Source: Candidatus Desantisiibacteriota bacterium (GTDB taxonomy: Bacteria > UBA9089 > CG2-30-40-21). Taken from it: a stretch of 17,783 bases of DNA. Positions 3,534-15,247 of the stretch are shown one piece after another; the stretch's first letter is position 1; the number at the start of each line of letters is the position of its first letter. A model generated the notes under the pieces. It was not told the DNA's origin and searched no databases. It worked only from the letters and a program-made list of their open reading frames with translations. The stretch spans positions 1-17,783 of the forward strand of contig JACQYP010000090.1 in assembly GCA_016208205.1 (NCBI GenBank), given 5' to 3'. Both the position numbers and the translations under genes were made by a program.

Positions 3534-3576
3534 AATTATCAATTATCAATTAATAATTATTAATTGATAATTCTAC
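3534..3576. repeat. 43-bp AT-rich palindromic repeat, copy 1
   Basis: It contains a perfect 32-bp palindrome, half-unit AATTATCAATTAATAA, extended by one more AATTATC phrase. The minus-strand end is headed by GTAG (3573-3576). An identical 43-bp copy lies at 5008-5050. It fills the rpmJ-rpsM gap next to the rpmJ stop codon and could fold into a long AT hairpin. Confidence 0.85.
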
Positions 3577-3577
3577 C

Positions 3578-3691
3578 CTATCCCTGTCGCTGTTTATGCT
3601 TAGGATTAGCACAAATAACCCTGACAATCCCTTTTCGCTTGATTATTTTACACTTTTCACACATTTTTTTAATTGAAGATCTAACCTTCAT
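3578..3691 (-). CDS. rpmJ: 50S ribosomal protein L36
   Basis: L36 is a tiny zinc-ribbon protein of the large subunit. The 37-residue product reads [20 protein letters not shown] and continues to Cys27, His32 and the tail HKQRQG. Cys11, Cys14, Cys27 and His32 form the expected zinc site, so this is the zinc-binding form. The ATG at 3689-3691 lies inside the last codons of infA, giving an 11-nt overlap that suggests translational coupling. infA-rpmJ-rpsM is the standard order. Confidence 0.96.
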
Positions 3692-3959
3692 TATTGACCA
3701 CCATTCCCTTTCCGTCTTTTCCTCTATATACAATCCGACCACGGGTTAAATCATAAAGCGACAACTCTACAACCACTTTATCGCCCGGTAATATTTTTAT
3801 AAAATGCATTCGCATCTTACCCGATATATGAGCTTGAATCTTATGTCCATTCTCAAGCTCTACCCTAAAAACAGCATTAGGCAAAGCCTCTAAAACCGTT
3901 CCCTCTACCCTGACAGCCTCTTCCTTTTTGCCTGAATCCTGTTTGGCTCCCTTAGCCAT
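3681..3959 (-). CDS. infA: Translation initiation factor IF-1, with N- and C-terminal extensions
   Basis: IF-1 binds the 30S A site during initiation and aids IF-2 and IF-3. The OB-fold core is unmistakable: [37 protein letters not shown] and [12 protein letters not shown] chose ATG 3957-3959 because GAGGAG lies 5 nt upstream. The product is 92 residues against about 72 usually. The extra length is a charged N-terminal stretch of about a dozen residues ([13 protein letters not shown] region) and a short tail after VYR. The gene overlaps the start of rpmJ. Upstream, toward map, is a 288-nt gap full of REP-like hairpins. Confidence 0.96.
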
Positions 3960-3976
3960 ATTATCTCCTCTATAAA

Positions 3977-4246
3977 GTAGGTCAGACATTCTTGTCTGAC
4001 TGACCCTTGGGTCGCAATCCCTTACTCATCAAATACAACCACAAGCAAGAATGCATATGTTACCCTACATTACGAAGCGAGACGCTTCGTCTACATTCAT
4101 CAAATACAACCACAGGCAAGAAGCCTGTGCTACTCTAAGTTAATATCATTGCCCCATAGTAGGTCAGACATTCCTGTCTGACTGACCCTTGGGTCGCGCA
4201 ATCCCTCATTCATCAAATACAACCACAGGCAAGAAGCCTGTGCTAC
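3977..4246. repeat. Cluster of five GTAG-headed hairpins (REP-like)
   Basis: Five stem-loops, each with GTAG at the 5' foot, fill the map-infA gap. On + they are GTAG at 3977 with GTCAGAC/GTCTGAC arms (3981-4000), and the near-identical copy at 4159-4182. On - they are GTAG 4091-4094 with ACGAAGCG/CGCTTCGT arms (4072-4090), GTAG 4130-4133 with CACAGGC/GCCTGTG arms (4111-4129), and its copy at 4224-4246. A GTAG tetranucleotide beside a hairpin is the hallmark of REP sequences mobilised by RAYT (Y1) transposases. No RAYT gene is in this window. There is no T run, so they are not simple terminators. Confidence 0.75.
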
Positions 4247-4264
4247 TCTAAGTTAATATCATTG
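4095..4264. repeat. 113-bp tandem duplication that includes the 3' end of map
   Basis: A 57-bp block is present identically at 4095-4151 and 4208-4264, 113 bp apart. The right copy contains the last codons and the TAG stop of map. The left copy is an extra map 3' end lying in the gap. A third, shorter match (TCATCAAATACAACCACA) starts at 4026. This indicates local duplication of a gene end together with a REP-like hairpin. Confidence 0.85.
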
Positions 4265-4988
4265 GTCCATTATTAGTAACAACAATTGTATGCTCAAAAT
4301 GAGCCGATAAACTTCTATCCGCTGTAACAACCGTCCAGCCATCAGGCAAAACCTCTGTTTTGTGCTCGCCGGCATTAACCATTGGCTCGATACAAAACAC
4401 CATCCCTGACTTAAGCCTGGGTCCCTTTCCCTGTTTACCAAAGTTTGGAATCTGAGGATCCTCATGAACCTTCTGACCAATCCCATGCCCTGTATAATCC
4501 CGCACCACGGAAAACCCATGTTTTTCAACATGCAACTGAACTGCCGCAGAGATATCATACAATCGATTATTCTCCACAGCTTGCTCGATACCCTTATAAA
4601 GAGATTCATTAGTCACAGCCATTAATCTTTCTGCCTCAGATGTTACCCTGCCTATTTTCACGGTACTGGCTGCATCACTGCAATAATCCTTAAATCTTAC
4701 CCCAATATCGATCTTTAATATCTCCCCTTCTTTAAGCCTCTTCACCCCGGGGATACCATGAACTACCTCATAATTAATCGATGTACATATACTCCCCGGA
4801 AACCCCAGATATCCTAAAAAAGCCGGCTGTCCACCCCTTTTTATAATCAGCTTCTCAGCCGCATTAGCAATATATTGTGTTGTCATTCCAGGTTCAACGA
4901 TATCCTGCAGATACCGTAGCGCCTCTTTAACTATCTTTGATGCATCAGATATTTTATCTATCTCTTGCTTAGATCTCCTGATTATCAT
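4248..4988 (-). CDS. map: Methionine aminopeptidase, type I
   Basis: Removes the N-terminal Met from nascent proteins after deformylation. The 246-residue product has the pita-bread fold signature. The five metal ligands can be assigned as Asp94 (KIDIGV), Asp105 (CSDAAS), His168 (TGHGIG), Glu201 (CIEPM) and Glu232 (HFEHT). The substrate-binding His77 is in VVHGIP. There is no N-terminal zinc-finger extension, so it is the short class. The ATG at 4986-4988 has only a weak GGGA ribosome binding site. It follows adk after a repeat-filled gap, and adk-map-infA is the classic order. Its 3' end has been duplicated into the downstream gap. Confidence 0.97.
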   Translation of the reverse strand: MIIRRSKQEIDKISDASKIVKEALRYLQDIVEPGMTTQYIANAAEKLIIKRGGQPAFLGYLGFPGSICTSINYEVVHGIPGVKRLKEGEILKIDIGVRFKDYCSDAASTVKIGRVTSEAERLMAVTNESLYKGIEQAVENNRLYDISAAVQLHVEKHGFSVVRDYTGHGIGQKVHEDPQIPNFGKQGKGPRLKSGMVFCIEPMVNAGEHKTEVLPDGWTVVTADRSLSAHFEHTIVVTNNGPMILT

Positions 4989-5007
4989 TTAATCCCACGC
5001 TAAATAT

Positions 5008-5050
5008 AATTATCAATTATCAATTAATAATTATTAATTGATAATTCTAC
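5008..5050. repeat. 43-bp AT-rich palindromic repeat, copy 2
   Basis: Identical over all 43 bp to 3534-3576. On the minus strand the element begins GTAG, and the TAG of that tetranucleotide is the adk stop codon (5047-5049). The palindrome therefore starts right at the gene end. The rest fills the adk-map gap. Confidence 0.85.
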
Positions 5051-5688
5051 TCAAGCACACTCACCAATTGCTTGAAGATTTCGTCTATCTCAGCTTCCCC
5101 ATTTATTACCCTTAAAAGCCCTTTTTGTTGATAATATTCAATCAATGGCTCGGTTGTTTCTTTATAAATCTTTAATCGTCTCCTGACAACATCCTCTTCA
5201 TCATCCGGACGGTGATACAGCTTACCGCCACACTTTGAGCAAATACCCTTTTTTGCAGGTGGATTAAACTCAAGATGATAATTAACATTACACTCAGGAC
5301 ACACTATTCGGCCGCACAATCTCCTGACCACCATCTCTTCATTCACATCTAAGAGCAGGACAACATCTATGGGAATATTTTTCTCACCTGTCATCTTATC
5401 AAACGACGCTGCCTGAACAATCGTTCTTGGAAACCCATCTAATATAAATCCATTCCCGCAATCTGTCTGAATAACCCTGTCCCGAATAATGCCAATAATT
5501 ACATCATCAGAAACAAGCTCACCCTTATCCATAAATTCCTTTGCTTTTATCCCTAATTCTGTTTTATTGGTAACTGCCTCTCTGAGTATATCACCTGTTG
5601 AAATCTGAGGAATGCCAAACCTTTCACTCAAACGGCTTGCCTGTGTTCCCTTACCTGAACCTGGTGCCCCTAAAAATATCAATCGCAA
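5047..5688 (-). CDS. adk: Adenylate kinase, zinc-type LID
   Basis: Interconverts ATP + AMP and 2 ADP in the cytoplasm. From the TTG at 5686-5688 the product is 213 residues and begins MRLIFLGAPGSGKGTQ, the usual start of the family, with the P-loop at 7-15. The AMP-site GFPRT is at 85-89. The LID carries Cys130, Cys133, Cys150 and Cys153, the zinc-binding pattern. AGGGGTGA lies 8 nt before the TTG. An alternative is the ATG at 5752-5754, which overlaps the secY stop as TAATG and has GAGGT 8 nt upstream. That start would add 22 residues unlike the family. I favour the TTG, with moderate confidence in the start only. Confidence 0.95.
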   Translation of the reverse strand: MRLIFLGAPGSGKGTQASRLSERFGIPQISTGDILREAVTNKTELGIKAKEFMDKGELVSDDVIIGIIRDRVIQTDCGNGFILDGFPRTIVQAASFDKMTGEKNIPIDVVLLLDVNEEMVVRRLCGRIVCPECNVNYHLEFNPPAKKGICSKCGGKLYHRPDDEEDVVRRRLKIYKETTEPLIEYYQQKGLLRVINGEAEIDEIFKQLVSVLE

Positions 5689-5753
5689 TTTTCTCACCCC
5701 TCTCTGACGGACAAAACTTTCCAACACCAATAAACTTGCCTTATTTATCGGCA

Positions 5754-7079
5754 TTAGAATCTACCTCGTATCTTCCCTTTTTTCATAAAACCATCATAAT
5801 GACCCATCAAAAGATGAGATTCTATCTGCCGCATAATGTCAAGAGCCACACCAACTGCAATCAAGATGGATGTCCCTCCAAAATGAAACGGTACCTTCAT
5901 CCCGCCATATATCAACGACGGTATCAGATTAATCAATGCCAGAAATATTGCCCCAACAAAGGTAATCCTTTTCAGGATGCGTTCAATATATTCAGCCGTT
6001 GGTTTACCGGGTCTGATACCGGGAACAAACCCGCCATACTTACGCATATTCTCTGCAACATCCACTGGATTAAAGATTACAGTCACATAAAAGTAGGTAA
6101 AGAATATTATAGCAAAGGTCTCTATGATGTAATATATTGCCCCCTGTCCAGGTGTTAATTGATGAACTATAAACTCCATGACCGGATTACCTGTTCCACC
6201 AAAAAAGGTCATGATCGTAGCCGGTATGGTCAGCAGGGATGAGGCAAAGATAATGGGAATAACACCTGCCATATTGACTTGCAAAGGCATATGCGTACTC
6301 TGCCCGCCATATACCTTTCTTCCCACCATTCGCTTGGCATACTGCACCATAATCTTACGATGCCCCTGAATCATGGTCACTGTTGCTGCTATAGCTAATA
6401 AAATAACCGCCAGCCCTATTATAAATACAATAATATTCCTTTCACCGGTAAACAAAAGCTTACCACTCTCAATAATACCATTGGGTATCCTTGAGATAAT
6501 ATTAGCAAAGATTATCAGGGATGCTCCATTCCCCAGACCCCTTTCAGTAATCTGTTCCCCAAGCCACATCACAAAGGCAGTCCCTGTAGTCAAGGTGATA
6601 ATAGTCATAAGATGAAAACCAAGACCAGGAGCCAAAACCATACTCTCGCCTTGCAATCCACGCATACTCTGTATCCAGATGCTTACACCGGATGCTTGGA
6701 TAACACCAATTACAAGTGTCAGGTATCTGGTATACTGATTTATCTTCTTCCTGCCTATCTCTCCCTCTTTCTGAATCTTTTCAAGGGAAGGCATCACCTT
6801 TGTCAGCAGAGACATAATGATTGAAGCACTGATATAAGGCATAATACCGAGGGTAAAGATAGAAAACTTCTCAAATGCTCCCCCGGCAAACATATCCAGC
6901 ATCCCGACAATCGTACCCTTTGCCTGCTGAAATATCTGTCCAAGAGCAACCGTATCCACACCGGGTGTAGGCACTGCTGCCCCAAAACGATAAACAGCAA
7001 GCAAGGCAATAGTAAAAAGTATTCTCTTTCTTAACTCATAAACCTTAAACGGATTGAGTACATTTTCAATTCCCTTCAC
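5754..7079 (-). CDS. secY: Protein translocase subunit SecY
   Basis: SecY is the channel of the SecYEG translocon in the cytoplasmic membrane. The 441 residues fit the family, and I can follow about ten hydrophobic segments. Signature stretches include VPTPGVD in the first periplasmic region, EQITERGLGNGASLIIF, and the cytoplasmic loop around KRMVGRKVYGGQSTHMPL. The C-terminal GGTSILIAVGVALD is also typical. The start is GTG 7077-7079, preceded by GGAGG about 10 nt away. The stop TAA overlaps an ATG in the adk frame. rplO-secY-adk is the standard order, with a GTAG hairpin in the rplO-secY gap. Confidence 0.98.
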   Translation of the reverse strand: MKGIENVLNPFKVYELRKRILFTIALLAVYRFGAAVPTPGVDTVALGQIFQQAKGTIVGMLDMFAGGAFEKFSIFTLGIMPYISASIIMSLLTKVMPSLEKIQKEGEIGRKKINQYTRYLTLVIGVIQASGVSIWIQSMRGLQGESMVLAPGLGFHLMTIITLTTGTAFVMWLGEQITERGLGNGASLIIFANIISRIPNGIIESGKLLFTGERNIIVFIIGLAVILLAIAATVTMIQGHRKIMVQYAKRMVGRKVYGGQSTHMPLQVNMAGVIPIIFASSLLTIPATIMTFFGGTGNPVMEFIVHQLTPGQGAIYYIIETFAIIFFTYFYVTVIFNPVDVAENMRKYGGFVPGIRPGKPTAEYIERILKRITFVGAIFLALINLIPSLIYGGMKVPFHFGGTSILIAVGVALDIMRQIESHLLMGHYDGFMKKGKIRGRF

Positions 7080-7111
7080 CCTTACTCTTCCTCCATATCA
7101 TTGTCCACAGC

Positions 7112-7139
7112 GTAGAGACGCAAGATTTTGCGTCTCTAC
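7112..7139. repeat. GTAGAGACGCAA hairpin overlapping the rplO stop codon
   Basis: A perfect inverted repeat with 12-bp arms (GTAGAGACGCAA and its complement) around a 4-nt loop, so GTAG heads it on both strands. The rplO TAG stop (7136-7138) is formed by the element's own end. There is no T run on the minus strand, so it is not a simple terminator. It is another REP-like hairpin with a different stem sequence. Confidence 0.8.
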
Positions 7140-7576
7140 ACAAATTTCACAGTCCCACCTGCAGCCTCTATCTTTCTCACTGCTTCCTTACTTGCTGCCT
7201 CAACTACCACATGTAAAGGGATATTTATCTCTCCATCACCCAGAATCTTTACCCCGGATTTCAGCTTTGAGATCATTCCGGTACTTAAAAGCAAATCAGA
7301 TGTAATCGCACACCCTGACTCAAACTCTGACAATCTTTCTACATTAATAATAGCAAATTCCCTTCTATTCATACTGAAGAAGCCTCTTTTAGGGATTCGG
7401 CGCTGGAGCGGCATCTGACCACCCTCAAATCCTCTTCTCGGCTTCCTTCCACTTCTTGCCTTTTGTCCCTTTGCTCCCTTGCCGGCAGTCATCCCTAAAC
7501 CACTTCCATGCCCTCTCCCTACTCTTTTAGCCTTTTTTCGTGAACCGGCCGGAGCAACTAATTCATTTAACTTCAT
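7136..7576 (-). CDS. rplO: 50S ribosomal protein L15
   Basis: L15 is a late-assembling large-subunit protein that contacts many 23S rRNA domains. The 146-residue product has the canonical glycine-rich basic N-terminus (MKLNELVAPAGSRKKAKRVG, then GHGSGLGMTAGKGAKGQ) and the GFEGGQMPLQRRIPKRGF block. The ATG at 7574-7576 sits just after GAGGTGG and overlaps the end of rpmD by 14 nt, which suggests coupling. The frame is open further upstream, but that part reads as out-of-frame rpmD sequence. The stop codon lies inside a REP-like hairpin. Confidence 0.97.
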   Translation of the reverse strand: MKLNELVAPAGSRKKAKRVGRGHGSGLGMTAGKGAKGQKARSGRKPRRGFEGGQMPLQRRIPKRGFFSMNRREFAIINVERLSEFESGCAITSDLLLSTGMISKLKSGVKILGDGEINIPLHVVVEAASKEAVRKIEAAGGTVKFV

Positions 7577-7754
7577 TTCCCACCTCAACCAAATAACACA
7601 CTTTATTAACCATACCTCGAATAACCGGGGTATCATTCTTTATCACTACATCGTCTATTCTTCTGAGCCCAAGAGCAGCCAATGTCTTCCGATGCTTTGG
7701 CACCCTTCCGAAAGCACTCTTTATCAATTTTATTCTTATTTGCTTACCTTCCAT
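7563..7754 (-). CDS. rpmD: 50S ribosomal protein L30
   Basis: L30 is a small large-subunit protein. The 63-residue product fits the bacterial form: IRIKLIKSAFGRVPKHRKTL, then ALGLRRIDDVVIKNDTPVIRGMVNKV, with the conserved end of VCYLVEV. The ATG at 7752-7754 follows AAGGTGG. It overlaps rplO by 14 nt. It is separated from rpsE by a 167-nt gap holding a CACAAAG-family hairpin, which is unusually wide for this gene pair. Confidence 0.96.
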   Translation of the reverse strand: MEGKQIRIKLIKSAFGRVPKHRKTLAALGLRRIDDVVIKNDTPVIRGMVNKVCYLVEVGNEVK

Positions 7755-7781
7755 TTTACCACCTTAATTTTATCATTGTTT

Positions 7782-7918
7782 ATAACTATTCAGCCACAAA
7801 GACACAAAAAATATAGAATTTGGTAATCCGATATTTGTTAGATCACCAAGCCACCAAGTCAGTTATTTTACAACCTTGGTGTCTTGGTGCCTTCGTGGCA
7901 AGATACCTGAGTGGTTAT
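7782..7918. repeat. CACAAAG-family long inverted repeat between rpsE and rpmD
   Basis: The outer arms are ATAACTATTCAG (7782-7793) and CTGAGTGGTTAT (7907-7918), matching at 10 of 12 when inverted. Inside these, CCACAAAGACACAAA on the left faces a GGTGTCTTGGTGCCTTCGTGG run on the right. The core repeats CACCAAG phrases. The TAACYACTCAGGT motif at the right end is shared with the inner arms of the element at 121-342. It abuts the rpsE stop codon. I see no reading frame in it. Confidence 0.7.
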
Positions 7919-7921
7919 CAG

Positions 7922-8440
7922 CTACTTTCCTTTTCTCAATTCAACCTTATCTATTATCCCCTTCATCGCTTTCAACCCTTCCAATGTAGCATGAACCACA
8001 TTGATAGGATTATTTGTTCCAATAGTTTTAGTTAAGATATCCTTGATACCCACTGCCTCCATCACTGCCCTTACCGGAGCACCGGCAACAATCCCTGTGC
8101 CAGGTGCAGCAGGTTTCAGTATTACCCTGCCTGCTCCAAAATGACCTACGAAAAAGCAAGGTACGGTATTATCTCTTAATGCCACGGTAAACATGCTTTT
8201 CTTTGCTAATTCAACCCCTTTAGCAATTGCACTCGGCACCTCTTTTGCCTTTCCAATTCCAACCCCAACCTGTCCCTTTTCATCGCCAACTACAACCAAT
8301 GCTGAGAACCCAAACCGTTTTCCACCCTTAACCACTTTTGCTACCCGGTTGAGGAAAACTACCTTTTCCTTAAGCCCTGATGATGATTCACCATCTTTTT
8401 TTCTTTCTCTTGTCTTTCTTTCTCTTCTTTCCTCTGCCAT
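7922..8440 (-). CDS. rpsE: 30S ribosomal protein S5
   Basis: S5 lies near the mRNA entry channel and affects decoding fidelity and helicase activity of the ribosome. The 172-residue product shows the double-stranded RNA-binding-like N domain ([18 protein letters not shown] and [14 protein letters not shown]). The C-terminal domain contains [20 protein letters not shown] and the conserved [17 protein letters not shown] charged stretch rich in Arg, Lys and Glu precedes the core (2-25). I prefer ATG 8438-8440, as AGAGGT lies 9 nt upstream. An ATG two codons earlier is only 3 nt from it. The order rplR-rpsE-rpmD is standard. Confidence 0.97.
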
Positions 8441-8465
8441 AATCATTCTACCTCTTGTTAATTAT

Positions 8466-8590
8466 TTAGGTTGTTTAGGCTGAAGGCTATTAGGTAGGAG
8501 GGAATTATGCGATACGGACATATAGTCTGTTTACCTTTCCTAATCCCTTCTTACCTACAGTCTAAAAGCCTACAGTCTATCTACCTAAAC
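8466..8590. repeat. TAGACTGTAGGCT-type repeat between rplR and rpsE
   Basis: The left half (TTTAGGCTGAAGGCTATTAGG) and the right half (CTACAGTCTAAAAGCCTACAG...) are made of related phrases in opposite orientation, so the segment can fold back on itself. A second member of the family is at 10961-11058. No coding frame is visible. Confidence 0.6.
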
Positions 8591-8597
8591 TGTTACC

Positions 8598-8954
8598 TTA
8601 AAAATTCAGCCCTTCAGCCCTTGCTCCATCAGCAACGGCTTTGATTCGACCATGGTAAAGCAATCCACCACGATCAAAAACCACATCCTTTATCCCTTTT
8701 TCTATTGCCTTACGGGCAATCATTTTTCCTACCTCACCGGCTACTTCACTCTTTTTCATCCCAGAGGTATCAACACCCTTTATACTGGAAGCAGCAACAA
8801 GTGTTACACCTTTTTCATCATCTATTATCTGTCCATAAACATGATTCAATGTGCGACAAACAGTCAATCGTGGTCTTTCCGATGTACCACTTACATTCTG
8901 TCTCACCCTTAACTTTCTTCTTAACTTAGCATCTTGTTTTGTCTTAACCTTCAT
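8598..8954 (-). CDS. rplR: 50S ribosomal protein L18
   Basis: L18 binds 5S rRNA and joins it to the central protuberance. The 118 residues are normal in length. Diagnostic parts are [19 protein letters not shown] near the N-terminus, the [19 protein letters not shown] strand pair, and the C-terminal [20 protein letters not shown]. The ATG at 8952-8954 follows GGAAAGG. It comes after rplF, with a repeat-bearing gap of about 100 nt, and precedes rpsE. Confidence 0.97.
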
Positions 8955-11474: not shown

Positions 11475-11840
11475 TACAACCTCTGGAGCAAGGGTAATAA
11501 TCTTCATATAATTCTTTGCCCTTAATTCCCTTGCAACCGGACCAAATATTCTGGTTCCCTTTGGATTACCCTGTTCATCTACTATTACCACAGCATTATT
11601 ATCAAACCGTAAGGATGAACCGTCCTTTCTTTTTATTTGATTAACGGTTCTTACCACCACAGCCTTAACCACATCACCAGACTTAACCGCAGCATTTGGG
11701 ATAGCATCTTTTACTGCTGCTACGATTACATCCCCTACCCTTGCATACCGGGCATTCGATCCCTTCAGTACCCGGATACACAACACCTCTTTCGCCCCTG
11801 AATTATCAGCTACAACACACCTTGTCTGTGTCTGAATCAT
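11472..11840 (-). CDS. rplN: 50S ribosomal protein L14
   Basis: L14 lies on the intersubunit face of the large subunit and forms bridges to 16S rRNA. Its 122 residues are the standard length. The protein starts [19 protein letters not shown] and carries [18 protein letters not shown]. It ends with the [17 protein letters not shown] block and [11 protein letters not shown]. The ATG at 11838-11840 lies 4 nt after the rpsQ stop, with its ribosome binding site (AAGGCGGTG) inside the end of rpsQ. This tight spacing suggests coupling. Confidence 0.98.
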
Positions 11841-11844
11841 TTTC

Positions 11845-12102
11845 TTACACCGCCTTCCTTACAATCTCTGTTACCCGCCATCTCTTTGTCTTAGAAAGTG
11901 GTCTTGTCTCCATGATCCGCACCCTATCCCCTGTCTTGCAAGTATTCTCTTCATCATGAGCATAATAACTCTTTTTAACACTAATTATCTTTTCATAGAC
12001 AGGATGTTTCTTCCGACTGACAACATTCACGACAACGGTTTTATCCATCTTACTTGAGATAACATCTCCTTCTCTTACCTTTCGTCTTCCTCTATCCTGC
12101 AT
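11845..12102 (-). CDS. rpsQ: 30S ribosomal protein S17
   Basis: S17 binds 16S rRNA early in 30S body assembly. The 85-residue product has the OB-fold core [14 protein letters not shown] and the [19 protein letters not shown] segment. It closes with the conserved [23 protein letters not shown] 12100-12102 is chosen, since GGAGGA ends 8 nt upstream. The frame is open to 12156 but that part looks non-coding. Normally rpmC precedes directly. Here a roughly 1-kb insertion with two unrelated reading frames separates them. Confidence 0.97.
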
Positions 12103-12162
12103 CAAACATCTCCTCCATATACCTATCAGTAATCCTGTAGTCCACAAGATTTCCACACCTTA

Positions 12163-12837
12163 TTATTGAACAATTACCGATTTAAGTTTAAAAAAATATA
12201 CTATTAACGCCACCAATAATCCAGCAACAAAACTTACTATAATATTTGCTACTGGCTCAAATTTTTTTGCTTTATCTATTTCTATTACAGCAGAAACACT
12301 GTTTCTTATTTTTTTGTCAATATCAAAAAGTTCATCAAGAATCTCTTTATAATGCTCTACTTCAATCATCAATTCGCTACCATTCGCGATATCTTTCTCT
12401 TCTCTTAACCTTGCAATTTCATTACCTATTTCATCAATCCTTGGTCGTATGTTTGAATAATAATCAGGTATTGCTTTAGAAATAGCTTCATGATGAAAAG
12501 GTTTAAGTGTTTCTATTATTCTGTCTCTAAGGCTCATTGATAGCCAATCTACACTATCAAAAAATGCTCTATACTCATGTCCTAACGCTTTATCAAGATT
12601 CTTATCAATATATTTTGAATCTTCACAATCATTAATTCCTATTATTACCGAATTAGCCCTAATTATATGTTCTAAAGTATTTCTTAATTCATTAAAAGGT
12701 TGAATAAATGTCTTAAAACTCTCATCAAATTCCTCTGCCTTTAATGTAATATGCTTAGTATACTCATGAACATGTATTATTTTTTTCCATACTTCTTTAC
12801 AGACTTTCTCTATTTTTACCTCTATCTTATACTTCAA
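12163..12837 (-). CDS. Uncharacterised helical protein with C-terminal membrane segment
   Basis: I do not recognise this family. The 224 residues look mostly helical and charged, with a likely coiled coil around 130-180 (RIDEIGNEIARLREEK and EHYKEILDELFDIDKKI). One strongly hydrophobic segment lies at about 197-216 (ANIIVSFVAGLLVALIVYFF), followed by a short tail, which suggests a C-terminally anchored protein facing the cytoplasm. No ATG opens the frame. The first codon after the upstream gene's TAA is TTG (12835-12837), with no visible ribosome binding site. The upstream 65-codon frame is in the same phase, so readthrough, reinitiation or a broken single gene are all possible. Its base use is AT-richer than the ribosomal neighbours, suggesting acquired DNA. 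Confidence 0.6.
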   Translation of the reverse strand: MKYKIEVKIEKVCKEVWKKIIHVHEYTKHITLKAEEFDESFKTFIQPFNELRNTLEHIIRANSVIIGINDCEDSKYIDKNLDKALGHEYRAFFDSVDWLSMSLRDRIIETLKPFHHEAISKAIPDYYSNIRPRIDEIGNEIARLREEKDIANGSELMIEVEHYKEILDELFDIDKKIRNSVSAVIEIDKAKKFEPVANIIVSFVAGLLVALIVYFFKLKSVIVQ

Positions 12838-13035
12838 TTAAGGTAATTTCGTTGAATAAACTCTTTTTCTATTTTCTTCATACTCCTTCGTTGTCCAAAA
12901 TCTTCCTGTAGAAATTCTCACAGAACCTCGATACCTATATGACTCATTAACAACTTGCTTCCGGACTTCTTCAGTGATAGAACCCATAGATGGAAAATCC
13001 TTTTCAATAAGTTCTAATAATTCTGTCTTACTCAT
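12838..13035 (-). CDS. Uncharacterised 65-residue protein inserted between rpmC and rpsQ
   Basis: The start is very well marked: ATG 13033-13035 follows AAGGAGGT by 6 nt, the best ribosome binding site near this spot. The product is acidic at the N-terminus (TELLELIEKDFPS) and basic in the middle. Its C-terminal half, SVRISTGRFWTTKEYEENRK, looks like a defined short motif rather than random sequence, and it ends YSTKLP. I cannot assign a family. It ends at TAA 12838-12840, immediately and in frame before the 224-codon frame. The pairing resembles a small two-gene cargo unit, such as a regulator or antitoxin with its partner, but this is conjecture. Confidence 0.65.
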   Translation of the reverse strand: MSKTELLELIEKDFPSMGSITEEVRKQVVNESYRYRGSVRISTGRFWTTKEYEENRKRVYSTKLP

Positions 13036-13094
13036 TAAAATACCTCCTTTTTAATGATAAAACAATAGTAATTTTACCACTGATCACCAAATGC

Positions 13095-13295
13095 TTACCC
13101 TACAACACTACTCTCCATATTTCTAATCAGGGTCAACACCCTGGCAATCCCACGACGAACCTGACAAATCCTTGCCGGATTATCTAATTTTCGGAGTGCA
13201 GACTGATGTCTCAGATTTAATAATTCCCTGTACATATCTTTTCTTTTATCATAAAGCTCTTCTAAGGTTAATTCCTTCAACTCTCTCAGTTTCAT
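13095..13295 (-). CDS. rpmC: 50S ribosomal protein L29
   Basis: L29 is a small helical protein at the tunnel exit, near the docking site for SRP and trigger factor. The 66-residue product begins MKLRELKELTLEELYDKRKD and carries the family motif ELLNLRHQSALRKLDNPARI, then RRGIARVLTLIR. The ATG at 13293-13295 follows a purine-rich GGGAGAGAAGAAAG stretch. It is separated from rplP by a 227-nt gap full of palindromes and from rpsQ by the inserted genes. Both separations are unusual for this gene set. Confidence 0.96.
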   Translation of the reverse strand: MKLRELKELTLEELYDKRKDMYRELLNLRHQSALRKLDNPARICQVRRGIARVLTLIRNMESSVVG

Positions 13296-13347
13296 CTTTC
13301 TTCTCTCTCCCCTATGCGGATAATATCAATCAAAACCTGTCTGGCAT

Positions 13348-13368
13348 GTAGCAAGCACCTTCAGGTGC
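13348..13368 (+). repeat. GTAG-headed GCACC/GGTGC hairpin
   Basis: GTAG (13348-13351) is followed after CAA by GCACC-TTCA-GGTGC (13355-13368), a short perfect stem-loop. It follows the GTAG-plus-hairpin pattern of the map-infA cluster but with another stem sequence. It lies in the rplP-rpmC gap beside the larger hairpin. Confidence 0.55.
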
Positions 13369-13374
13369 GTTTCG

Positions 13375-13499
13375 ACCTGTGCAATCGAGATTTTTTACCA
13401 CAAAGAACGCAAAGGAGGCACAAAGTTTTCAAAGGTTTTCTTTGTGTCCTTTGTGAATTTTTTGCGACCCTTGTGGTAAAATTATACAGTTGCACAGGT
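13375..13499. repeat. 125-bp CACAAAG-family long hairpin between rplP and rpmC
   Basis: The terminal arms ACCTGTGCAA (13375-13384) and TTGCACAGGT (13490-13499) are perfect complements. An inner pair TTTTACCACAA (13393-13403) and TTGTGGTAAAA (13471-13481) is also perfect. Further in, AAAGGAGGCACAAAG faces CTTTGTGTCCTTTG. The whole segment can fold into one long stem with few interruptions. No gene is inside. It shares the CACAAAG theme with 121-342 and 7782-7918. Confidence 0.8.
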
Positions 13500-13522
13500 A
13501 AATGCGTTTTAATGCAACCAAT

Positions 13523-13945
13523 TTACACCACAATTTCCTCTCCACGAACCACAAACTTTGTCTTCAATGGCAATTTATGACTCATACGCCTCATAGCCTC
13601 TTTAGCCACTTCTACGGTAACACCAGATAGCTCAAACATCATCCTTCCGGGCTTAACCACAGCCACCCAGCCACATGGTGCCCCTTTACCCTTACCCATA
13701 CGAGTTTCAGCAGGTTTAGATGTAATAGGCTTATCAGGGAATATCCTGATCCAGACCTTTCCACCTCGTTTTACATATCTGGTCATAGCAATTCTTGCTG
13801 CTTCAATCTGCCTATCAGTTATCCATTTTGGCTCTAATGCCTGAAGACCATATTCACCAAAACTCATATAACATCCGGTATCTGCCATGCCTTTCATTCT
13901 TCCCTTGTGTTGTTTTCTATATTTAACCCTTTTTGGCATTAACAT
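13523..13945 (-). CDS. rplP: 50S ribosomal protein L16
   Basis: L16 lies near the A-site and helps position aminoacyl-tRNA at the peptidyl-transferase centre. The 140-residue product has [16 protein letters not shown] at the start, [21 protein letters not shown] in the middle, and [20 protein letters not shown], all diagnostic. I chose ATG 13943-13945 because GGAGG lies 9 nt upstream inside the end of rpsC, although the usual MPKRVKYR start is two codons on. The start is 1 nt from the rpsC stop, so coupling is likely. Confidence 0.97.
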
Positions 13946-14686: not shown

Positions 14687-14899
14687 TTAAGCAGCAATCA
14701 TCCCTGTACCGATGTCTATAACCTGATTTATCATCCAAACAAACAAAATAATCAATACCACCAATACCCCAATCTTCAGAAAAAAGTTTACCTGATCCCT
14801 TCTTGTTTTACTTCGTTTATACTCTCGATAATATCCAACAGTCTCATATACGGTAAAAATCATAACCAAAAGCATTAATAATACATAAAGCCATTGCAT
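14687..14899 (-). CDS. Small two-helix membrane protein, uncharacterised
   Basis: The 70-residue product has two hydrophobic segments, about 3-22 (WLYVLLMLLVMIFTVYETVG) and 42-61 (KIGVLVVLIILFVWMINQVI). They are joined by a strongly basic loop (YKRSKTRRDQ), which would place the loop in the cytoplasm. A near-perfect ribosome binding site (AAGGAGGT) lies about 9 nt before ATG 14897-14899, so I regard it as a real gene. It is not SecE: the conserved SecE cytoplasmic helix is missing. It lies in the rplV-rpsC gap with two other tiny membrane-protein genes. The function is unknown. Confidence 0.7.
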   Translation of the reverse strand: MQWLYVLLMLLVMIFTVYETVGYYREYKRSKTRRDQVNFFLKIGVLVVLIILFVWMINQVIDIGTGMIAA

Positions 14900-14934
14900 A
14901 TCCTTCTACCTCCTTAAACACTTACAAATAAACA

Positions 14935-15057
14935 TTATCTTTGTCCTTCAACAGGCATTTGTTTGCGTTTCTTATGTTCTATATAGTAGACATAAATAGC
15001 AAAACCAATAGCCATTAAAGCCCCACCAATAGTTACCATTATAAGATTGTACCACAT
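14935..15057 (-). CDS. 40-residue single-pass membrane protein, uncharacterised
   Basis: ATG 15055-15057 opens a 40-codon frame ending at TAA 14935-14937. The product starts MWYNLIMVTIGGALMAIGFA, continues through IYVYYIEHKKRKQ and ends PVEGQR. It has one transmembrane helix (about 4-26) followed by a basic cytoplasmic tail. AGAGGT ends 9 nt before the ATG, supporting translation. It starts 3 nt after the stop of the frameshifted gene upstream, and the 70-codon gene follows after 35 nt, so the three look co-transcribed with the ribosomal genes. I do not recognise a named family. Confidence 0.6.
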   Translation of the reverse strand: MWYNLIMVTIGGALMAIGFAIYVYYIEHKKRKQMPVEGQR

Positions 15058-15060
15058 TAT

Positions 15061-15247
15061 TCATTGACCTCTTTCTTTATCTATCCAAAAAGCGATAATG
15101 ACCAAAATACATGTTACAAAAAGACCTACAATGATAAATATAAGGATTAACCATTTCTTTTGAAATAATAGAACCTATTACGAAACCACCAAAAGTTAAT
15201 TTAGCAATATCATAAAAGAACTTAGAAAGATTTGTATATCTTCCCAC
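15061..15247 (-). pseudogene. Frameshifted small two-helix membrane-protein gene
   Basis: From GTG 15245-15247 (AAGGAG about 10 nt upstream) one frame reads GRYTNLSKFFYDIAKLTFGG, then FVIGSIISKE. It then loses its membrane character. The next frame continues exactly there with WLILIFIIVGLFVTCILVII, then AFWIDKERGQ and TGA 15061-15063. Removing one base near the AAAAGAAAT run (about 15155) joins them into a 61-residue protein with two membrane helices and basic ends, a coherent design. So the gene is broken by a one-base insertion, contains a sequencing error, or uses a programmed frameshift. The family is unnamed to me. Confidence 0.65.

Follow-up and report, generated by a model that had tools for sequence, protein, structure and literature searches.

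The window, a 17,783-nucleotide stretch of DNA from a Candidatus Desantisiibacteriota bacterium, carries ribosomal genes on the minus strand in their usual order around an insert of two genes that parts rpmC from rpsQ. The upstream flank, rpmC (13095-13295), was identified by sequence and position, and the downstream flank, rpsQ (11845-12102), has an S17 Pfam match, an ATG at 12102 and GGAGGAG upstream of it. Between them on the same strand lie ORF1 (12838-13035), which starts with ATG and encodes a soluble small protein of 65 amino acids with a C-terminal motif, and ORF2 (12163-12837), which encodes a helical protein with a predicted C-terminal membrane helix, 224 amino acids long from a TTG or 216 from an ATA at 12813. 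The coordinates confirm the original prediction of a 65-codon and a 224-codon frame lying in phase between the ribosomal genes, with only a TAA (12838-12840) to separate them.

The insert has a GC content of 26-31% in segments wholly inside it, against mostly 35-48% in the surrounding ribosomal genes. The other low-GC stretch (30-34%) marks another accessory insertion into this operon, in the rpsC-rplV gap (14687-15247, minus strand). It holds three small ORFs of 70, 40 and 56 amino acids, at least two of them hydrophobic, and the third matches Pfam DUF6722 above the cut-off (E 1.1e-9), a family not named in the literature searched. Between rplP and rpmC, at 13375-13499, an imperfect 60-nt inverted repeat with outer ends ACCTGTGCAA and TTGCACAGGT folds as DNA far better than its shuffled versions (z -7.1) and has the appearance of a miniature inverted-repeat element; the 23-mer at its core is found once in the window.

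Judged by gene content, the ORF1-ORF2 insertion is real relative to the S10 regions of six genomes of the planctomycete phylum. Around rplP-rpsQ in these six regions, searches with the window proteins detected relatives of neither ORF1 nor ORF2 at E <= 0.1; rplP and rpsQ are present there, and L29 was confirmed in two of the genomes. Scanning 11800-13600 turned up no terminator-like site, and the 59-nt gap ahead of ORF1 showed no promoter-like one, which makes co-transcription with the ribosomal genes plausible.

The excellent ribosome binding site predicted for ORF1 is borne out: the Shine-Dalgarno sequence AAGGAGGT (13042-13049, minus strand) forms a duplex of -13.0 kcal/mol, a strength matched by 0.4% of 1000 random minus-strand positions. 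ORF2 had been described as lacking such a site. This holds for the TTG (12835-12837) directly after the TAA, where the duplex reaches -0.1 kcal/mol, but not for an ATA eight codons further on (12811-12813), which is preceded at 4 nt by a Shine-Dalgarno-like GAGGT (12818-12822) of -7.2 kcal/mol, a value that 14% of random positions equal. The TTG is the sole common start of table 11 that retains the conserved N-terminal helix of ORF2, and reinitiation at this codon is possible. The ATA aligns with the starting methionine of the three closest relatives (P0006-P0008), whose starts are gene-caller choices known from protein sequences alone. An AUA start with its own Shine-Dalgarno sequence would fit this alignment better than reinitiation at the TTG. 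The accessible portion of PMC13009471 describes AUA starts with Shine-Dalgarno sequences in S. aureus, namely in infC, ccpN and citZ. In the window, either AUA is used, or UUG is reached by reinitiation, or the ATA reflects decay or an error; the lack of an ATG may point to weak expression or decay of ORF2 in this genome.

Relatives, pairing and the gene boundary

As a query, ORF1 alone matched 4 clusters and ORF2 matched 31, itself included, at 33-68% identity; a small-protein profile of 12 sequences reached 62 clusters at E <= 10. Source names of the ORF2 relatives include Nitrospirota, Kiritimatiellia, Syntrophales, Victivallaceae and Oscillospiraceae, and further ORF2 loci come from Lentisphaerae, Phycisphaerae, FCPU426 and Lachnospiraceae. 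The ORF2 searches contributed 10 loci from species genomes, two from viral contigs, one from plasmid records and more from group searches, while the small-protein searches gave L022, L023, L024, L029 and L032.

Homologues might have been fused, adjacent or alone; in all 20 other pairs they are adjacent separate genes, and with the window the two genes keep the same order in 21 of 21 pairs from several phyla. A small ORF stands immediately upstream at each of the 17 ORF2-search loci with upstream DNA (L001, L003-L010, L024, L026, L027, L029, L044, L045, L048 and L049), and ORF2 is present at all three loci reached by the small protein alone (L022, L023 and L032). In 17 sequences (the window, L001, L003-L010, L022-L024, L026, L027, L029 and L032) the top-scoring match to the small protein directly precedes that to ORF2; the small-protein match in L027 is weak (E 0.001), and the annotated genes of that locus fit. 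The small ORFs of L044, L045, L048 and L049 were recognised by eye through their RGS motif. P0002 and P0006 bear the tags ABIF11_11000 and ABIF11_11005.

From the shared phase of the two frames, the original prediction had considered stop-codon readthrough to a 290-residue form and a single gene disrupted by a nonsense codon. The shared phase is true of the window but uninformative, since 9 of the 21 pairs have it (8 of the first 17 and, among the last 4, L048). Small-gene stops are TAA, TGA or TAG across the pairs, so the TAA is not conserved, and spacing ranges from overlaps (TAATG in L006, 4 nt in L027, 8 nt in L044) to a gap of about 50 nt in L022. The overlaps are out of frame in relatives such as L006, L010, L027, L044 and L049. 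With stop, spacing and phase all variable, readthrough as a conserved mechanism is rejected; a nonsense-disrupted gene is contradicted by the 31 ORF2 matches, none of which is fused to the small protein, and by the 20 other pairs of separate genes. The sole joined product, P0093 (one of the 62 small-protein matches), runs into an ORF2-like start and looks like a frameshift. As far as sequence comparison goes, the TAA between ORF1 and ORF2 is an ordinary gene boundary.

The pair is rare wherever it was sampled. The small-protein profile was positive in 3 of 392, 2 of 240, 1 of 45 and 2 of 95 genomes, and the ORF2 profile in 5 of 387 and 4 of 295, with one positive in the second ORF2 set judged false. 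These counts put the pair at about 1-2% of the genomes sampled. The figure is rough and applies to groups already known to hold the pair: each was chosen for a known positive, which is counted, one small-protein and one ORF2 survey overlap in genomes, and some genomes had their candidates scored only in part. Pfam, PADLOC, NCBIfam and PHROG offered no convincing family for either protein, the PADLOC and PHROG matches being weak, and no title listed in the literature searched, whose coverage leaves most subscription papers outside, describes the pair. ORF1 and ORF2 are uncatalogued as a pair and leave a clear genomic signature in several bacterial phyla.

Protein features and the membrane anchor

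The C-terminal motif of ORF1 reads RGSVRxxxGRxWTxxxYExxRxxVxSTxLP, and in close relatives conservation covers most of the small protein's length. A structural model of one homologue (P0045) reached modest confidence (pLDDT 82, pTM 0.52). Some variants merit separate mention. A tight subfamily of 68-aa small proteins (P0070, P0075, P0076, P0079, P0080, P0083, P0084 and P0086-P0088), with the signature KHRGSVRISTGRFYT..EEW..RRK and one member named Dehalococcoidia, may define a sister system. P0004 carries an N-terminal run-on, VEHRSPKPRVAGSSPVGPA, which we take to resemble a translated tRNA gene, hinting that one copy adjoins a tRNA. At L024, a terminator-like hairpin with a T run after it (5193-5228) separates the small gene from the start of ORF2, a site of possible attenuation.

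The original prediction of a helical, probably membrane-anchored ORF2 protein agrees with its predicted structure. An AlphaFold2 model based on 31 sequences is all-helical (mean pLDDT 92.7, pTM 0.80), with helices that include residues 2-37, 46-65, 74-111, 126-146, 155-192 and 194-223. The best 19-residue Kyte-Doolittle window, residues 196-214 (12196-12252, minus strand; mean 2.53), marks the predicted C-terminal membrane helix. Conservation is greatest in a core of residues 50-104 (12526-12690, minus strand), which holds E50, H57, R60, K83, H87, R90, D94, D97 and R104. H87, D94 and R145 are invariant in 39 of 39 sequences, E36, E50, H57, R60, R90, D97, R104 and K148 recur in 37 or 38 of them, and the window's ORF2 retains the invariant residues of the family. 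In helix 74-111 the conserved polar residues fall on one face (chance about 0.005); the same test was not significant for three other ORF2 helices (0.10-0.15), so that one of four passed. Structure searches with ORF2 gave no informative match among the matches listed, and when the 31 ORF2 members were compared with Pfam, the 25 of 46 families listed contained nothing beyond weak matches to single members, the strongest at 2.4e-5. A version of ORF2 with a duplicated C-terminal part (321-323 aa) occurs in P0009 and at L001 (5947-6918).

Membrane segments were called where a 19-residue Kyte-Doolittle window passed 1.6, a threshold that we set ourselves, and exactly one partner exceeds it in 21 of 21 pairs. 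The anchor lies at the ORF2 C-terminus in 11 pairs (the window, L001, L003, L004, L022, L023, L024, L029, L032, L044 and L045) and at the small-protein N-terminus in the other 10 (L005-L010, L026, L027, L048 and L049). In a tree of 39 ORF2 sequences the members with a soluble ORF2 form one clade (support 0.91). The 21 pairs hence amount to about one evolutionary change and not to 21 independent tests. Even so read, the exclusive anchor is what one shared membrane complex predicts, and its pattern across the sequences suggests such an assembly; for two uncharacterised proteins, an anchor that either partner can carry is a helpful sign of a complex. L005-L010, L026, L027 and L049 have another hydrophobic ORF upstream, of about 130-173 aa, its hydrophobicity being judged by eye except in L049, where it was scored. 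This third gene is present at most Firmicute loci.

Mobility, selection and possible function

The two Firmicute loci L007 and L008 share a single blastn match (88.7% over 1.65 kb), which holds the three genes. Within it, dN/dS is about 0.16 for the third gene, about 0.14 for the small gene and about 0.03 for ORF2, values that show strong purifying selection in this pair of sequences. Two loci sit on viral-collection contigs; at one of them, L024, the upstream ORF appears tail-like by eye and is without a Pfam match. L007 and L010 have serine recombinases nearby, and L007 also has a Mu-type transposase; a DDE transposase lies close to L003 and a TIR gene close to L009. In the ORF2 tree, L032, from the order of the Oscillospiraceae genome, groups with L023, from the phylum of the Phycisphaerae genome (support 0.98). 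L055 carries a second copy of the cassette at a spacing of 1142 nt, and the reported 300-nt repeat is 100% identical. On these comparisons the cassette is rare and moves as a unit.

Other features of the neighbourhoods were recorded alongside. At L055 (4708-7284), three copies of a 44-nt repeat stand before, between and after the tandem cassettes, a presumably REP-type-transposase-like gene lies upstream, and a PD-(D/E)XK transposase-type gene is among the scanned neighbours. When 64 neighbour proteins were compared with PADLOC, the first of these proteins (L051:3576-5201) came out as a type III methyltransferase, and the 25 of 53 families listed also include DrmMI, mad3, two PDC-S01 members, a type IIG enzyme and a type III restriction enzyme; we infer which family belongs to which neighbour. 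One copy of the pair, at L051, follows closely on the methyltransferase and an adjoining 894-aa ORF (3576-8926) that is probably the restriction enzyme belonging to it. Against Pfam, the 25 of 82 families listed for the same 64 neighbours are mostly those of ordinary metabolism and housekeeping. A defence association, for which the defence-type neighbours are few, is at most suggestive.

The original prediction had offered, as an attractive reading, a functional small cargo pair riding on ribosomal expression. This is the reading that we favour, given the obligate pairing in the loci examined, the purifying selection in relatives, the one anchor per pair and the lack of a terminator-like site in 11800-13600. 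With moderate confidence, we regard ORF1-ORF2 as a mobile two-component module that is tethered to the membrane, rides on ribosomal transcription and probably resembles defence or toxin-antitoxin systems. A two-gene cassette would have been acquired horizontally and landed between rpmC and rpsQ. Its two proteins would form one complex at the inner membrane, in which sensing or effector action may fall to the helical bundle of ORF2, with its invariant polar residues, and the small protein may dock on ORF2 through its conserved C-terminal region as a regulator or adaptor. Both genes would be expressed from the ribosomal transcript, ORF2 being translated from AUA 12813 or after reinitiation at UUG 12837, and either start is proposed to hold ORF2 below the level of ORF1. 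Less certain than the module itself is its role, which we infer to be accessory defence or addiction (abortive-infection or toxin-antitoxin-like) and not housekeeping.

The strongest competitor is a membrane accessory pair with a physiological role, such as envelope stress or the regulation of transport, that is uninvolved in conflict or defence. The membrane anchoring, the third hydrophobic gene at most Firmicute loci and the prevalence of ordinary neighbours among the Pfam families listed would all suit it; its rarity, spread across phyla, movement as a unit and mobile-element neighbours would not, and we hold it to be a real but lesser possibility. Clearly behind it comes the proposal that ORF2 is a HEPN-like ribonuclease effector restrained by the small protein in a membrane-bound toxin-antitoxin or abortive-infection system. 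The pattern R-[NDH]-x3-H is found in 28 of 39 sequences, or in 33 if K is allowed for R, yet the three closest relatives have K in place of R, conservation is stricter at H87, D94 and R145, and the motif follows one long and one short helix, unlike the end of HEPN helix 3. The window protein gave no HEPN profile match, and we consider this proposal unlikely.

Equally doubtful is the idea that ORF2 is an intact frame starting to decay in this genome through a change of ATG to ATA, or that the base is a sequencing error. The ATA stands where P0006-P0008 start and the TTG has no Shine-Dalgarno sequence, but the frame is open over 224 codons with its conserved residues kept, AUA starts of this kind are among those that the accessible portion of PMC13009471 reports for S. 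aureus, and the starts of P0006-P0008 are the gene-caller choices noted above. It is quite improbable that ORF1 serves as a leader peptide controlling ORF2 translation and not as a functional protein. ORF1 is short and immediately upstream, many copies of the small protein end in Leu-Pro-stop, and the L024 gap holds its terminator-like hairpin; against this stand the conservation over most of the small protein in close relatives, its membrane helix in 10 pairs, its dN/dS of 0.14 and the absence of the Leu-Pro ending in L010, L048 and L049. A 290-residue fusion made by readthrough, or a single gene that a nonsense mutation has divided, has the in-phase frames of the window in its favour and is scarcely credible given 9 of 21 pairs in phase, three stop codons, out-of-frame overlaps and no fusion among 31 ORF2 matches.

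Beyond the favoured mobile module, a more ambitious interpretation may be put forward tentatively, as one that we would not yet bet on. The pair might represent a new class of mobile membrane-tethered conflict system, anti-phage or addictive, in which a small protein with an RGSVR C-terminal region controls a helical effector that has a conserved polar core, the anchor sits on either partner and a third membrane protein joins in Firmicutes. If the conflict-system reading were true, the system in the window would be wired into a ribosomal-protein transcript, its dose would follow growth rate and ORF2 would be damped by an AUA start.

Comparison with known systems

The closest general parallel is with type II toxin-antitoxin modules, as treated in the accessible parts of Makarova, Wolf and Koonin (2009, PMC2701414). 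The present pair resembles them as a two-gene operon of small proteins, with this arrangement in 21 of 21 pairs, and in its patchy distribution and horizontal mobility. It differs in that one partner always has a membrane helix, whereas the body of the same source and a reviewer's comment in it present such helices as atypical for type II pairs. No DNA-binding or known toxin domain was recognised in either protein: no family exceeded its cut-off for ORF1 or ORF2, and the PADLOC and PHROG matches are weak.

The HEPN superfamily offers a second comparison. In the portion of PMC3710099 available, its motif is given as Rx4-6H, with N, D or H after R, placed at the end of helix 3, and permuted HEPN domains are said to exist. 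ORF2 is likewise all-helical in its predicted model and has R-[NDH]-x3-H in 28 of 39 sequences, a HEPN-like pattern that serves as no more than a lead; unlike HEPN proteins, its R is not invariant, other residues are more conserved and the motif occupies a different position. No HEPN profile match was found for the window protein or among the 25 of 46 weak families listed for ORF2 members.

Insertions into the ribosomal cluster have precedents. The part of PMC8046335 that was accessible describes known genes (tusDCB, bfd-bfr, nrdHEF and ilv-leu) inserted between operons or in rpoBC, and the present case is similar in that a few genes have entered a conserved ribosomal cluster. Unlike the insertions described in that part, the one reported here is an uncharacterised mobile pair that splits rpmC from rpsQ, and it indicates that even this adjacency tolerates mobile cargo.
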